Assembly: GCF_036417845.1 (NCBI RefSeq)
Contig: NC_089985.1
Location: forward strand, 29,842,583 to 29,906,582
DNA: 64,000 nucleotides
DNA from: Apteryx mantelli
Taxonomy: Eukaryota > Chordata > Aves > Apterygiformes > Apterygidae
Reading direction: 5' to 3'
Shown: positions 1-57,190 of the stretch, piece after piece
Numbering within the stretch: the stretch's first letter is position 1
How the letters are laid out: each line of letters begins with the position of its first letter
Translations under genes and position numbers: made by a program
Notes under the pieces: generated by a model
What the model saw: only the letters and a program-made list of their open reading frames with translations
What the model was told of the DNA's origin: nothing
Databases searched by the model: none

Positions 1-1065
1 CCTTTTAATTTCTCCAAGTCTGCTGCATTACTTTGTTAGAAAAGTACTTCTGCTACTACTTCATTTAATGTAATAGACACTTGGTGGTTTGTACGCATCA
101 TCATTTTTTATTGGTTCTGCCAATAGGTTTAGGATTTCTAAGGAGAGAGAAAACCTTTTAGCTCTTATACTAGCTGGGTATTATATTTGCCTAAGAATGT
201 TAGAGGGACCTTTTTTATTTTCAGTTTCTTCAGTATCTAATTGGAGACACAGAGGCTCTCTGCCTTCATGCCCTCTTTTATTGTGGTACTGTCTTCAGTT
301 CTGATATCTTTTAGACACCAGGATGGTGCAAGATGGATTCTTGTAGTTTGACCAGCACCATCTTGGTTCCAGCCTTCTTGGATTTCACAGATCTTAGCAC
401 TGAGGCAGGGATTTTGAGGAAGAGCTATGAACTGGGCACCCTTCCGGACTACTTCTGACATCTTTAGATTTTCCTACCTCTGTCTCCTGAAGGCCTGTTA
501 TATTTCTTGGGATTCTGCAATTGAAAGGAACTGACATTTTAGCCTTGGAATCCTGGTATTTTCTTCAAATTCTCCCTTACTGGATTCATGTAAACCAACA
601 TCTTGTTGCCTTCTCTCGTGCTTACTCTTTCTCCCACCTAACTTTATTTCTCCTGCTTGTGATACTAAAATTTTCATTGTTTTATCTCCTCTTAATTACT
701 ACCTGTCTGCTTTCCTGTTCTCCACCTTGCTTAAGTGCATCTGCTAAGATCATCTTTCTTGCACATTATTTCTAGCTCTTCCTTCTTTAATTGCGTGAAA
801 CGTATATCTTTGTTTTTTTTCAAAACCCGTCTTAATACTCACAATTGTCCCCAACATTAACGTGTTCATCTCTCCTTCAGTTGTTTGCTTTATTCCATAC
901 AGTCCAGCATGTTAAAACCCTTCCTACCATGATAACTAAATCCTGTAGCCTCTCAAATTGGTATCCTTTCTCTCACACTGTCTACAAGATACCTTACAAA
1001 GTAGGATGGTTAAATTTTGCACAGCTTTTGGAAATGGTTAAATTCTTACCTGTTTTCCTCTCTAG
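1..1065 (+). other. CFAP57 intron (partial), no exon seen
   Basis: The sequence is AT-rich and interrupted in all frames, and ends in a polypyrimidine stretch and AG at 1064-1065, the acceptor of the first CFAP57 exon in the window. I see no further CFAP57 exon here. A 74-codon minus-strand open stretch at 237-461 was considered and not accepted. Confidence 0.6.
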
Positions 1066-18100: not shown

Positions 18101-18412
18101 ATGAAACGTACAGGAAAGGAAGGACTGGGTCCTGGTCATTCCCCAACAGTGCTGCTCTGGGGATGCTCCACCATGTTCTGCAACTCTGCTTGGAGGCAGG
18201 GCTCAGCCCCAGCACATGGACCATAGCTCTCTGGGTGGCACTGCCACAGAAGGGAGCTCCACTGGGCACCAAAGAATGAGACAGAGGCGTCCCCGCATGA
18301 GAAATGCTGCCGTCTTCACAACTGCCACTGCTTTGACCCTCCCCTTCACTGTAAGGGTCTAGGTTCATCTGTGTGACCATCCTGCTGTGCCATCCCCACC
18401 CAGCCACTCACC
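18101..18412 (+). promoter_or_regulatory. Probable 5' UTR part of the TMEM125 coding exon, with uORF
   Basis: A long pyrimidine tract ending CTTTCAG at 18094-18100 looks like a splice acceptor, so the coding exon of TMEM125 probably starts at 18101 and a non-coding first exon lies upstream. An upstream ATG is placed exactly at 18101. It opens a 41-codon reading frame closed by TAG at 18224-18226, in the same frame as TMEM125 but separated from it by that stop. Such a uORF could dampen translation. Acceptor use is inferred, not shown. Confidence 0.4.
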
Positions 18413-19075
18413 ATGCCGGAGCTGGCAGAGCTGAGCACACCCCGCACCCCTGCGGATGCTGACCACATCCAGAGGAACATCCTGGAGGAGCATGTGGAGC
18501 TCTGGTGGTTCCAGGACCCCAAGAAGTCCATCCTGTGCTATGGGATGGCAGTGGTGCTGATCTTGGCCTGTGGGATTGGGGGCATCATTCTGCTGTACAG
18601 CACCAGCAGCCGGTCTGGGGAGTGGCGGCTGGCTGTGGGCACCACGCTCTGTCTCCTGGCCCTGCTCGTTCTGCTGAAGCAGCTGCTGAGCTCTGCCATC
18701 CAGGATATGAACTGCATCCGCAGCCGGGATCAGATTGAGCTCCTGAAAAGTGGGGGCTTCTCGGACTGCCTGGTGCTGCTGCTCAGCGCCCTGGTGCTGC
18801 TGATCTGTGGCATCGTGCTCACCGTCCTCTCCACCACGACCATGCAGCTCAGCCCTGTCCGGCCGCTGGCTAGCATGTTCACCAGTGGGATTATCCTCTT
18901 GACTGCTGGCAGTGCCATCCTCCTCTCCCTGCTGCTCTATCTCCTCTGCACCTCCTGCTGCCGAGCTGCTCCTCGAAGCTTGGAGACAGGTGAAATCAGT
19001 GTCTTCACCATCTCTGGCCGTCTTGCTGCTAACAGGCGACTTCCTCCCACCTCCAGCATGGCCAACCTGATCTGA
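18413..19075 (+). CDS. TMEM125: TMEM125, four-pass membrane protein
   Basis: Single coding exon of 220 residues, close to the 219 of human TMEM125. The molecular function of the family is not established; expression in epithelial tissues is reported. The start ATG is in a good context (CTCACCATGC). There are four hydrophobic segments at about residues 43-63, 73-93, 118-140 and 154-179. Between the first and second lies the family hallmark [20 protein letters not shown], followed by [20 protein letters not shown] at about 83-103, both near-identical to human as remembered. The N-terminal part holds [12 protein letters not shown], and the C-terminus ends in a Ser-rich tail with SSMANLI, like human SSIASLI. 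Its position directly after CFAP57 is the human order. Identification is confident. Confidence 0.95.
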
Positions 19076-27683: not shown

Positions 27684-30600
27684 TCAGACAGAGAGGTGTG
27701 ACTCCCTTTCTTCCTCCTCTTGCAGCTGCTCACTCGGCTGAATGTAGTTGTCCTCAATGAAGCCATCGTCGTCCTCAGTGTGCAAGCCGGCTGCACCAGG
27801 CATGGGGTGGCTCTCGCTGTCTCCCCGGCCTGAGGTGTCCCTGTCCCAGCTGGTGCCTTCCTCCATGTGGCTGCCTCCAATCGAGCTGGTGTCGGGCAGT
27901 GGCCGGTGGCGGTAGCTAGCAAAGTTCTTGTGGAAGAGCTTGCACTTGGCAGCCAGTGCAACCAGGATGGAGATGCTGATGGCTGCCACCAGGAAGCCCA
28001 CCAGGTATGGCCAGCTCCTTCCCCCCTTTCCTGCAGGTGGTGTGGTGGCTGCAGCACAGGAAAGGCATGTCAGGGTGTTGTGTGTCGGCCATTGTGTGCC
28101 AGGGCATCATGTGTCAGGGCACTGCATGTCAGGGCATCATGTGCCCCTCACATTGTCAAGGGGGGACTGGGAGCAACAGCCCCCTGAGTGCACTTGGCAG
28201 ACCCACCACTGTGCCTCTATGCAAAGACTTCTGGCACTCATTGCAAGCTTAACTGTGAGAATAAATGCTGAGAAGCTGTTTAAGAACAGCTTTTCAGAAG
28301 TATTGTAGCTGTTGCTGTTTTACTCCAATATGGCTCCATAAAGCAGTTACTGCTAGGTGAGCCAGGGTGCAAGTCTGCAGCACATCAAGTCCTTCTCAGT
28401 AGCTTGCCATGTGCACGCCTGCCTTAGGCAGCAAACCCTGGATTGCTTTCACTAAGAGCAACATAAATGCTCTTCACCAAGAGCTAGCACCACATAACTG
28501 AACTGGAGAGAGTGTGTGTACACTGAGGAGAAAACTGCTAGGCAGCTGTTTGATACTGGTGCCCATCAGCATGGAGTGTGTGCCTGGTGCGGCTGTATGA
28601 CTCCTGCTACATCTTCTGCTGACCCGCACAGAGTGTGGCCAACCAGCAAACACCTCCAGGTGACAGCCATCCTCCCTGCCAAACCATTGCTCCATGGGTG
28701 GCCTGGGCAGTGCAGGTCCCTGGGCCTGCAGGGGAGCAGCAGGGATTTACGCCTGCAGTAGGGACATGCCTGTGGGGGTGACCAAGTAAAGGAGGGCACT
28801 AGTCAATACTGAAGCCTCCATAGCTGTACAACTTACTGTTGTTCTGGGTTGTTGTGATCAGCGGCAGTGTCATGTTGTCAGCCCGAGGAAACCGCTGCTT
28901 TTTCTTGCAGCCCAGGTCCTGGAAATCCAGAGCTGTAATGTCCTGCCCCCACAGCTCTGGAGGCGATGCGCAGGTGACCTGCACAGCTGGGAGATACACA
29001 GCCTAAGGTGGGACAAGGGGGTCTTCATCCTCTCCCTCCCCAGTTCAGAGAAAGCACTCTCTACTTGTTCCTTGTCTGATAGGAAGCAGAGCAGAGTGCT
29101 CCTGGTGCTGCCCTCCCACCTAGCCAGCCCTCAGCACACTGTAATGCACAACAAAAGAAAAAAATCCCCGACCAAGGAACTATCAGCAACAAGCAGAACT
29201 GCAAGTGTGTGACTGTGATTAGGTGGCTTTTTACTGGAAAGTACCAAATTCATGGATACTGATATGAACCGCACTCTCACAGGGTTACCTGTGTCATTCC
29301 TAGAAATCTTTGCTATTGTGTGTAACTGCAAGTAAAGAACTGACACTTTACACTTCAATTTGCTGTCTCTCAAGAGGGACATGAGAAATCCCTAGAGACT
29401 AGCCTCAGAACCTGCAAAGGGGTTGGAACAAAAGGATCAAACATGACTCCTATATCTAGGGTTCCTCCTAACCAAAATGTCCCTGACGCCTGTTCCCCAC
29501 CCCCATCCTCTCACCTTTTCTATGCTGGAGCCACTTCTGCAAAGGATATGCGGTGCAGTCACAGACCCAGGGGTTCCCTTCAAGCTGGACGTGTGGGACT
29601 GCCTCCATCAGCTGCAGGACTAAAGTGTCCATAGAGATCAGTGCGTTGTTCTGCAGGTCCAGGTGGAAAAGAGCCTCAAGGGGCAAGAAGAGAGAGACCT
29701 CTAGCTCTTGGAGATTGTTGTTTTTTAGGAGCAGTGTGTGCAAGTTTACTAAGCCCTTGAAAGCTTCTGTGTGGAGGTAGGAGATGCTGCAGCTGCTCAC
29801 ATCCAGCAAGCGTAGTGCACTGAGGTTGGAGAAGATTGCTGGATACAATGTGAACAAAGCATTGCTAGAGAGATTTAGGGAGTGCAGGGAAGGGAAATGC
29901 ATCAAAAGTGTCCCATGACTGGGCATGACCAAGGAGTTGAAGGAGAGGTCCAAACTGGTGATGTTTCTTGGAAGGGAACTTGGAGCGTACAGAAGGTTCT
30001 TCCCATTGCAGTTGGCCCGCCCCTGGAAAAAAGGGTCGCTGTCTGAGATGAATTCTCTGTACTATGCAGGATCTCCAGACTGAGATTCTCCAGAAGTTCA
30101 AATGTCTTAATTATTTACCCTTTGCAGAGTTTAAAGAAGGAATGACACAGAGAAGTGTAAAAGCGCATGAGCTGCCAGTCTGGTGTGGGTCAGGATAAAT
30201 GGAGAAAGATGAGCATAGAGCGGGACAACCCAGGACAGAAACAGACTGAAGAAATAAAGGAGAAATGCAGTGAACTGGAGGAGGAAACCTGGATAGATGT
30301 GGTGAATGTGAAGGGTGAACCAGGGACCCTCTCAAAGCCCCTTTCTGGTCTGCCTCTGGGACTCTGCAAAGGAGGTCGCTGCTGGATTGAGAGGACTCAC
30401 TTGTAATAAGGGCTGCTGCATCTGCCATGCTTGTGCGACTGCCCAGCAGTGTTGTGCCTGCAGGGGTCTGTTATGTGCAAATCTGTCTGTCTGTCTTTGT
30501 CAGAGCTTTCATCTGCCCCCCTTTGCCACAGCTGAATACCTTCCTCTTAGCACCAATAGCAGCCGTGTCCTAAGTGAATTTAACACAATCTGGCATATAT

Positions 30601-32880
30601 CCTTGTGGAAGCCATACTCTGGAGAAAGGGTTATTTGTTGGGAAGGGCTTGGAGGATAAAAGGGGAGATCAAATTGTAAGAGTTGCTCCCAGTGGAGAAG
30701 TCCCCTCAAAAAGGCAATTTTGTAGGATCCTTCAAAAAGGTTCTGGATTGGGTTTAGGTGGCCTCTTCTAGAAAGCAGCTAGCCAGGCTCCTTACTCCCA
30801 TGTCTCATCCCATGCTCCCAGAGGGGCACAGCCTGCAGCAGCTCACCAAGCAAAACCTGGTCTTGCTGAGCCATCAGTTGCATTGAAAATTAAGAAAAGC
30901 TGAGAAGCGGAAGAGAGAAGAGACTTTGTGCCACTTTGTGCAGGCCGTTTACCATGACAGGGTTGCAGAGAGTGGCCTGGCTGGGCTGTGAGAGGTTTCC
31001 CCTTCCAGGCACATCACTTGGGTCCTGCTGGTTCAGCCCAAGCCACTCCTCTGCTCACCGGTGGTTTCTAGTTTGCTAGCCACGTGGTAGCAGGAATGGT
31101 TGACCGACAGCAAAATAGTATCCAGCACAGTCACAACACCTCACTGATCTTTCTAAGGGGTCTTGTATATGTTCAGGAGAAACAGGGACTCTGCTGGGAC
31201 TTACAATGCAGACCCTGGAGAGGAGGAACAGTTATCTCTTCTGCTTGCACATGCAGTGCAAGATTTATGAGGCTATGATTCCCATGATGACATATCCCAA
31301 CATATCAACCCTCCACCCCCACCCCACTCTGAGTCACTCTTGCAGTGAACCCTGCTCTTTTTCACTTGTTCTTAGCACTGTTTCCGGCTTCCCTACCTCC
31401 TGAACATTTGCAACCCATGTCAAGAGCTGCTCCCTCAGGACATGTACAGGAATGTTGCATTCACAGCTTCCAGCCCTTTGCATGTTTCTGAAGATACACT
31501 GAGAATGGCAGCAACTTAATACACGCTGGCTGTGTCTATACTAGTAAATAAAATAGACCAGAGACCATTCTCTGTCCCAAAAGACCAGTAGTGCATGGCT
31601 GTGCATGGATCCATCCAAACAGATGAAATTTTTGACCCCCCAAAACAGGGTGGCCATTTAACAGGTAGCACTGTAACAGTTTGAATAATCATGGGACATT
31701 GCTCGATGTCATATATTGGCTCTGACCTTCCTATTAGTAGTAACATATCCAGTGGTGCTGTGCTGGAAGTTTGCTGCGGTCCTTAGACCCAAATTCCCAG
31801 GTCTGGCTACTTTCTAGCTAGCAGTCATTTCCATTACCTTGCCAATCACATGATCATCTCTCCTTTCATCCTCTGTTCAGCCTGGCTTTCCTACCGGGCC
31901 TTGCTCACTAAAGAAAGTGATAAACCTGGGCTGCTGAGGGCTGGGGAGTAGTGAGGCTCAGCCATGGTGGCCCCGCACAGGACCTGTCCCAAGCTCGAAC
32001 GTCCACATGTGCCAGGGTGGGGGAAGCTGGGAAAACAATCTCCCCATTAAAACCTTTCCAGGGCATATCTGAGAGCTCAGTGGCAAGTGCAGTGCTACAA
32101 CACCTCCTGCACACGACAGCCTTCTCCTGTCTCTTTCCCACTCCTGCCTGCTGCAGTCAAACTGCTGACTCCTGCTGTCACTCCAAGGCCTCCTGGCACA
32201 TTCCGCCTTCTCCCTTTTTTCCCCTCACGATGGTTTACAGCTATATTTCCTTTTCCTGGTTAAGTGCTTACTGATCCTGACCCCCAGGGTCGTCCTGACC
32301 CTGGCTTCTGCCGCAGAATCACTGGATATGTGAGAAGGGGCTGACGGGCCCCCAATATTCAGGCCATGGCACAATTATGGCAAAATTAGGCCAGGCCTAA
32401 TTTTCTTCACCAGATTTTGGCAGCAAGCACCCCAGGGACATGCCTCGCTGCTGCTTTTGGTGCAGCACCCACTGCTGGTGGGCAGGTTACTGGCAGCAGC
32501 ATTGGGGTTGCTGAAAGGTTCCTGGAGTAGGAGATGGAGCAGGAGGAACCACCTCCATGCCTGGTGTCCACTGACACAGATCTCCGGATAACTCTGCTTT
32601 CTCGCGGCAGGGGGTTCGTTTCACTGGATCATGTCCCAAGCTATACAGAAAGGGAGCTGCACACTGGGGGCTGCTGCCCGCGGGAGCAGGGCGCTGTGGC
32701 TCTGCTGCCTGGCGCTGGTGGCACTGGTGCCTGGGGCTGCCCTGCCTGAACCCAGCCGCTCCCGTGTGCCGCAGAGCCTCCTTTGCCCCCTACCTGGCTG
32801 TTGATGCTGCATGGGTGTCCCGTCACGGCCGCCCAGGTCCAGAGGAGGCTGCAGACACCGAGGACGCAGGCAGGAGCCAT
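27684..32880 (-). CDS. C1orf210: C1orf210/TEMP orthologue: full-length LRR membrane receptor
   Basis: Four exons read from high to low coordinates: 32880-32794 (signal peptide), 30022-29515 (LRRs), 28986-28837 (LRR C-terminal cap and stalk) and 28048-27684 (membrane segment and tail). All junctions are GT-AG, and the phases (0, 1, 1) join perfectly into 369 residues. Order: signal peptide about 1-21 (MAPACVLGVCSLLWTWAAVTG); N-terminal cap with Cys 24 and 34; five LRRs about 49-160 (LxxLxLxxNxL, e.g. LHSLNLSSNAL); C-terminal cap starting GNPWVCDC; Thr-rich stalk with NMT and NNT glycosylation sites; membrane helix about 262-283; tail with SYRHRPLP and DDDGFIEDNYIQP. The tail and membrane segment match human C1orf210 (TEMP, an endosomal membrane protein), and synteny agrees. 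Human TEMP is about 113 residues and lacks the LRRs; LRRC19 has the same overall design. Ligand unknown. Translation start chosen because it opens the signal peptide in exon 1. Confidence 0.88.
28067..28146. repeat. Minisatellite, 15-base unit, about five copies
   Basis: Imperfect tandem copies of ATGTCAGGGCATCAT: 28067-28081, 28082-28095 (14 bases), 28096-28110, 28111-28125 and 28126-28140, then a partial copy. It lies in the last C1orf210 intron, about 18 bases outside the acceptor AG of its final exon (minus strand), where the branch point would be expected. Confidence 0.75.
30023..32793 (-). other. C1orf210 intron 1
   Basis: This is the 2.8-kb intron between the signal-peptide exon and the LRR exon (minus strand). 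The donor reads CAG|GTAGGG at 32794/32793 and the acceptor TTTTTTCCAG just above 30022. No further exon is required by phase, and none was seen on either strand. Confidence 0.6.
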
Positions 32881-33680
32881 TGGGCTCCAGGAAGCTGCAC
32901 GGTGGAAAAACAGGTTGCAGGGGCGGGCGGGGAAGTCGGCGGAGCCGGCCGCGCGGGGGAGATCCCTGCCTCCAGCCGCAGCGTGGCCACCTCCGCCGCT
33001 CCCGGCACGCAGCCACGGCCAAGACGCACCCAACACCCGGCGGCGCCGGCTGCGGCCTGCGGCGAAAGGGGCCGGCGAGGCGCCGTGTCGCGTTGCGCGC
33101 ACCGCAGGGTCTGCTGCCAGCACGGCCGTGGCGCGGGCCGGCTGGGCCGGCTCAGCCTCTCTGGGCGCCCCGTCGCCCCGCACGCCCACGGCGGCGCCTC
33201 GCCGGCCTCCCTCCGCCACGGAGGCCTGGCGCCGAGGCCCGGCCGCCACGCACACTGCCCCGTGGCCCTGCCCGCCCCGCGGCCTCTGCGCCGCAGGGCC
33301 CCGGCCTCGCCGGGAGGGAGCCGCCGCGCACCTGGGAGCCGAGCCTGGCTGCCGCCGTGCTGCCTCGCGGGGCCGCGCGCGGAGGCCAGCGCTGCGGGGG
33401 GAAAGGTGCCGGTGCCGGTTACACATTAACCGCCTCCGCTCCCCGCTGCCGCCCAGCCCGGCGAGGCGCGCGCCAGGCCCCGCGGCTGCTGCAGGGCCGC
33501 ACGCGCCGGCCCTGCAGGGCAGGAGGTGGCCACAGCGGGTTTTGCTGGCCGGAGCAGGGCTCCGCGTCCCCAGGTGCCGGCTGGCCCCTCGGCAGCGCCC
33601 CGCCGTGCCCCCACTCCGCTCCGGCGCCGCAGGTCTCCCCGCGAGGCTCAGCCCAAGGAGCAGGGGCTGAGATTGCAGGC
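32600..33680. promoter_or_regulatory. CpG island, probable C1orf210 promoter
   Basis: A very GC-rich, CpG-dense stretch, densest at 32900-33500, in sharp contrast to its flanks. It covers the first coding exon of C1orf210 (minus strand, ATG at 32880) and extends upstream of it, so it is the natural promoter for that gene. No TATA box stands out. Several long open stretches on both strands inside it (up to 296 codons) are the usual by-product of few stop codons in GC-rich DNA. A divergent plus-strand transcript is possible but not shown. Confidence 0.6.

Positions 33681-39462: not shown

Positions 39463-57190
<17,728 letters not shown>

Follow-up and report, generated by a model that had tools for sequence, protein, structure and literature searches.

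In published work, LRRC19 is a receptor of the gut epithelium that signals from bacterial products to NF-kappaB by way of TRAF6 and TRAF2 (PMC10763354, PMC4742566), and lactobacilli elicited no response from a form that lacked the extracellular region (PMC4742566); a role in the kidney is taken from a cited title and from text citing that work. TEMP, the product of C1orf210, has been characterised in mouse as a type III membrane protein of 111 residues, located at the plasma membrane and in early and recycling endosomes and expressed in stomach, intestine and kidney (PMC3901140). Section 2.1 of that report describes mammalian TEMP as unrelated to known domains, with orthologues in mammals only; the tail motif is reported there to be 100% identical among the mammalian species studied, and its occurrence in Lrrc19 had already been noticed (PMC3901140). 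Here, a window of 64,000 nucleotides of Apteryx mantelli DNA is analysed, in which the C1orf210/TEMP locus is predicted to encode a full-length leucine-rich repeat (LRR) receptor that is probably an ohnologue of LRRC19. Coordinates are positions within this window unless a contig is named, and the block carrying TEMP belongs to contig C8 of the genome. The reading as a whole, comprising a full-length LRR-bearing TEMP, its ohnology with LRRC19, a role as an endosomal receptor and a reduction in mammals, is considered very likely.

Gene structure and predicted protein

Sequence reading places TEMP in four minus-strand exons between 32880 and 27684, with GT donors and AG acceptors at every internal border; the exons, of 87, 508, 150 and 365 bases, join in phases 0/1/1 to give 369 codons and a stop.

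32794..32880, minus strand: TEMP coding exon 1, with the ATG, a signal-peptide-like leader and the first ectodomain cysteine, ending in phase 0 (placed by its GT donor, the in-phase join, a candidate scan, and the same position and phase as the predicted exon 1 of LRRC19)
29515..30022, minus strand: TEMP exon 2, LRRs and the first half of the C-terminal cap, ending in phase 1
28837..28986, minus strand: TEMP exon 3, the second half of the cap and the stalk, ending in phase 1 (placed by its AG and GT sites and phase)
27684..28048, minus strand: TEMP exon 4, the end of the stalk, the membrane helix, the cytoplasmic tail with EDDDGFIEDNYIQP and the stop codon (LRR19-TM, 5.1e-12)
about 33000..33500, no strand: CpG island, likely the TEMP promoter region (GC 0.82, CpG observed/expected 0.97)

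The scan for exon 1 was crude, asking for an ATG, a hydrophobic start and an in-phase donor; across the 15 kb upstream of exon 2 it returned three candidates, two of which use the ATG at 32880 and one of which lies at 43427. An initial annotation of the same DNA had proposed four exons with phase continuity and a product of 369 residues, and the GT/AG borders, the phases and the stop codon bear this out, such that the four-exon model is confirmed at the level of sequence.

The joined protein matches Pfam LRR_8 at 1.7e-25 (89 bits against a cut-off of 27) and LRR19-TM (Pfam accession: PF15176) at 2.8e-11 (43.9 bits against a gathering score of 27). The best 19-residue hydropathy windows fall within residues 261-284, the top window (264-282) marking the membrane helix, and the tail beyond it carries both SYRHRPLP and EDDDGFIEDNYIQP; six N-glycosylation sequons are found in the whole protein. 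Of the layout that the annotation had drawn, the leader-like start, the LRRs, the helix and the SYRHRPLP/DGFIED tail were recovered, with the caps standing only in part: the cysteines of the C-terminal cap are present in the pattern CxC...C...C (C183, C185, C204 and C225), the Pfam LRRCT match stays below its cut-off (15.5 against 20 bits, E 0.026), and the Pfam search of the protein listed no LRRNT family up to E 1. The ectodomain finds a broad range of LRR proteins among solved structures, 263 distinct sequences matching at E <= 0.001, with no LRRC19-named structure among the best 60 of these 263. The Apteryx protein can with considerable confidence be predicted to be a type I receptor in which a leader precedes a short LRR ectodomain bearing LRRCT cysteines, followed by a single helix and an acidic DGFIEDxYI tail.

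Orthology with C1orf210

TEMP is situated between two plus-strand genes in the window.

18413..19072, plus strand: TMEM125 (Pfam TMEM125, 5.7e-51, on the frame 18377-19072; a stop codon follows)
46065..57190, plus strand: TIE1, from an EGF exon piece to the stop codon (placed by translated pieces and by genome searches with the kinase and EGF exons); the gene probably begins further upstream than 46065

Human C1orf210 presumably lies between the same two neighbours. An orthologue would be expected to combine the tail motif EDDDGFIEDNYIQPG with a membrane helix, and both are found, the Apteryx tail reading EDDDGFIEDNYIQPS and agreeing with the mammalian motif at 14 of 15 positions. When the genome was searched with the tail exon and with PF15176, the only second TEMP-like tail was that of LRRC19. 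Because the neighbours are TMEM125 and TIE1, the tail agrees at 14 of 15 positions and no further TEMP-like tail except that of LRRC19 was found, the locus is, by position and predicted sequence, the C1orf210/TEMP orthologue in a full-length form. The description of a type III protein (about 111 residues, a reverse signal anchor and no signal peptide) does not fit a 369-residue product that carries LRRs behind a leader-like N-terminus, and the gene is therefore filed as C1orf210 by orthology and not as a type III protein. The possibility that the locus is LRRC19 itself was ruled out by the location of LRRC19 on contig C44 (PF15176, 146.4 bits).

LRRC19 and the linkage with TIE1 and TEK

A genome search with the TEMP tail exon gave four matches up to E 10, the sole significant one outside the TEMP locus being C44:5133604-5133894 (8.3e-7), which is exon 4 of LRRC19; no copy of a short TEMP was found elsewhere in the genome, significant tail-exon matches being restricted to these two loci. 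Similarly, PF15176 gave six genome matches up to E 10, with LRRC19 and TEMP the only two over the cut-off. The LRR exon of TEMP also finds LRRC19 as its top match after itself (exon 2, C44:5131373-5131849, 8.2e-19). LRRC19 was assembled at C44:5129770-5133918 on the plus strand as a protein of 378 residues (LRR19-TM, 145.6 bits), with four predicted coding exons of 84, 511, 213 and 329 bases in phases 0/1/1, the same plan as TEMP; the gene is LRRC19 on the basis of its LRR19-TM score and its place near TEK. The two predicted proteins are identical at 114 of 341 aligned residues (33%), with exon 2 (35%) and the tail (34%) about equally diverged. In shuffle tests against LRRC19, the scores of exon 2 and exon 4 were each reached by none of 1000 shuffles, and the spacing of the last two cap cysteines, C-x20-C, is equal in exon 3 of both genes.

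Genome searches with TIE1 exons identified TEK on the same contig as LRRC19, through the kinase exon (C44:5050927-5051118, minus strand, 81% identical) and the EGF exon (C44:5063128-5063253, minus strand, 69% identical). LRRC19 (plus) and TEK (minus) stand head to head, as do TEMP (minus) and TIE1 (plus); LRRC19 lies some 66 kb from the EGF exon and 79 kb from the kinase exon of TEK, and the TIE1 EGF exon lies some 13 kb from the start of TEMP in the window. The chance of random placement within 80 kb is roughly estimated at about 1e-4. TIE1 and TEK have been reported as ohnologues of the two rounds (2R) of vertebrate genome duplication (PMC6389290). The linkage of TEMP with TIE1 and of LRRC19 with TEK is new, independent support for paralogy. 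That TEMP and LRRC19 are paralogues had been proposed in the initial annotation, as had an LRRC19 sharing the LRR, helix and DGFIED design of TEMP; the second claim agrees with the predicted 378-residue product of the gene on C44, and paralogy is well supported, as judged from the shared plan and phases together with a TIE1/TEK linkage that goes beyond the original argument. Given the shared exon plan and phases, the paired linkage and the 2R ohnology of TIE1 and TEK, the two genes are probably ohnologues: a block holding a single ancestral LRR receptor gene and, next to it, an ancestral TIE gene would have been duplicated, yielding TEMP with TIE1 and LRRC19 with TEK, in an event that we infer to have been the vertebrate genome duplication. 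Four loci of the NFI family were found, one on C8 (39.5 Mb) and one on C44 (22.1 Mb), at distances of some 10 and 17 Mb from TEMP and LRRC19; as the distribution of a single family, this fits a larger shared block and lends it weak support.

As a separate observation, TEK and LRRC19 together fall inside about 83 kb (C44:5050927-5133918), a mirror of TIE1 and TEMP. The tail encoded by LRRC19 exon 4 has, at one edge of the shared motif, the letters PEEDGF, similar to the pattern that TRAF6 binds, PxExx(aromatic/acidic); TEMP is without a proline there. When viral contigs were scanned for stray vertebrate relatives, 17 pattern matches turned up, none of them a relative.

Alternative explanations

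Several results weigh against the proposed structure and kinship. The exon 1 donor of TEMP, GTAGGG, is suboptimal, and exon 1 of LRRC19 is itself a prediction from a similarly crude scan with two candidates. The shuffle test was not significant for exon 1 (178 of 1000) or exon 3 (668 of 1000), and since their similarity to LRRC19 is not significant, what supports these TEMP exons is their splice phase, position and cysteines. In the LRR-exon search, the runners-up to LRRC19 (2.3e-17 and 6.9e-17) scored 73.6 and 71.9 bits against 78.2, which leaves the LRR part on its own with little weight. A 14-row tree of LRR segments, leaving out six of 20 loci that were shorter than 118 residues or without the LRRCT part (L012, L016, L019, L020, L021 and L023), gives no supported grouping or separation of TEMP and LRRC19. 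Five of the 15 loci with an LRRCT end (among the same 20), TEMP and LRRC19 included, have a phase-1 donor near the beginning of the LRRCT, such that this intron alone proves nothing; it was rejected as a mark peculiar to the two genes, because L010, L015 and L024 have a phase-1 donor there too, which suggests an old intron common to small LRR receptors.

The frequency of LRR exons in the genome, with at least 170 matches to that of TEMP at E <= 10 (a lower bound, as 150 of 215 candidates were scored), and the failure of the 14-row tree to join TEMP with LRRC19 would suit a gain of the LRR exons by TEMP within sauropsids, perhaps as copies of those of another LRR gene through exon shuffling, with the short mammalian form ancestral. 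Such a gain would, however, have to rebuild an existing plan, because LRRC19 shares the four exons and their phases as well as the LRRs and the tail; the LRR and tail exons are, moreover, about equally diverged from LRRC19, and the gain is accordingly held to be improbable. Still less credible is a false join of two genes, an LRR gene made of exons 1-3 and a short TEMP with its own leader and exon 4. An in-frame Met in exon 3 would indeed yield a TEMP-like product of 133 residues, and so a short form could arise at this locus, but every TEMP junction is in phase, and exons 1-3 show no comparable anchor, since the six best hydropathy windows all fall in exon 4. The same design is, furthermore, that of one protein in mouse, where Lrrc19 has 364 residues arranged as SS-LRRNT-6LRR-LRRCT-TM (PMC2235866). 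A full-length receptor descended from a common ancestor with LRRC19 remains the preferred account.

A further possibility bears on novelty only and is compatible with that account: a long, LRR-bearing C1orf210 may already stand in bird gene predictions, and its link with LRRC19 in Pfam, which seems somewhat more probable than the opposite. LRRC19 and TEMP-like tails are already one Pfam family, LRR19-TM, which matches the Apteryx protein and also, at 2.4e-9, the human TEMP sequence. In a review, C1orf210 is listed among the candidate genes of an RNA-seq screen in chicken embryos (PMC10959104). Against this, no statement of an LRR-bearing bird C1orf210 was found among the papers listed for C1orf210, alone or together with LRRC19 or chicken. 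Lrrc19 is included in a survey of extracellular LRR proteins from 2007, and the name C1orf210 is absent from the main text of that survey, where other names were not searched (PMC2235866). Neither the LRR form of TEMP nor the pairing of TEMP-TIE1 with LRRC19-TEK was found described in the paper listings searched, which lack most subscription journals.

Proposed reduction in mammals and proposed function

By parsimony, the LRR ectodomain is probably the ancestral state. The short mammalian TEMP would then be a reduced receptor, which lost the leader and LRR exons and retained the stalk, helix and tail; with the head gone, the helix would have turned into a reverse signal anchor, giving a type III protein in which trafficking or the function of the tail alone persisted. 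The initial annotation had put forward the same reduction, and its interpretation as a whole is supported in part. The in-frame Met of exon 3 may have made the short form easy to reach, with little change needed.

Because the long TEMP unites features of LRRC19 and of mouse TEMP, an epithelial LRR receptor cycling through endosomes is proposed. By analogy with these two proteins, TEMP would act at the epithelial surface and in early and recycling endosomes, its LRRs binding a putative extracellular or microbial ligand and the shared DGFIEDxYI tail recruiting putative adaptors or sorting factors. A more speculative extension, regarded as doubtful, holds that vertebrates began with both as sister epithelial receptors and that in gut and kidney mammalian TEMP, as a headless receptor, serves LRRC19 as a trafficking partner or acts on it in a dominant-negative way. 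Should mammalian TEMP prove to be a decapitated LRR receptor and the ohnologue of LRRC19, its conserved tail, endosomal location and expression in gut and kidney would gain a testable meaning, and it would be a clear case of membrane-topology change through exon loss; in birds there would be a second receptor of the LRRC19 kind, on which no study was found. For a mammalian protein that is poorly understood, this changes the interpretation.

Other features of the locus

The CpG island adjoins TEMP exon 1 on its upstream side. Immediately before the ATG, 32881-32910 is a pyrimidine-rich, acceptor-like stretch ending in AG, on account of which a non-coding first exon upstream is possible; the reading frame upstream of the ATG remains open in this GC-rich DNA. 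In intron 3, a short imperfect tandem array (28065-28145) is built of units of about 15 and about 30 bases and stops no more than about 20 bases from the exon 4 acceptor. Rfam gave no matches across the window at gathering scores.

Comparison with known systems

Small LRR-only receptors, including LRRC26, LRRC38, LRRC52 and LRRC55, have a signal peptide, six LRRs, an LRRCT, one helix and a short tail with acidic residues (PMC2235866), a layout similar to that predicted for Apteryx TEMP. They would differ in the tail itself, LRR19-TM not being expected in them because only two loci in the genome exceed the PF15176 cut-off.

Mammalian C1orf210/TEMP, 113 residues long in human, shares with the Apteryx protein the helix, the motif EDDDGFIEDNYIQP at 14 of 15 positions and, in human, SYRHRPLP and the place beside TIE1. 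The differences lie in length (111 residues in mouse), type III topology and the absence of a signal peptide and LRRs (PMC3901140).

LRRC19 is the closest counterpart in overall design, with a predicted leader, LRRs, LRRCT cysteines, a helix, a DGFIEDxYI tail, four exons in phases 0/1/1 and a head-to-head neighbour of the TIE family. It is nevertheless a separate gene on C44, 33% identical to TEMP, with a different tail beyond YI, a longer stalk (exon 3 of 213 against 150 bases) and 13 sequons in the whole protein against six.

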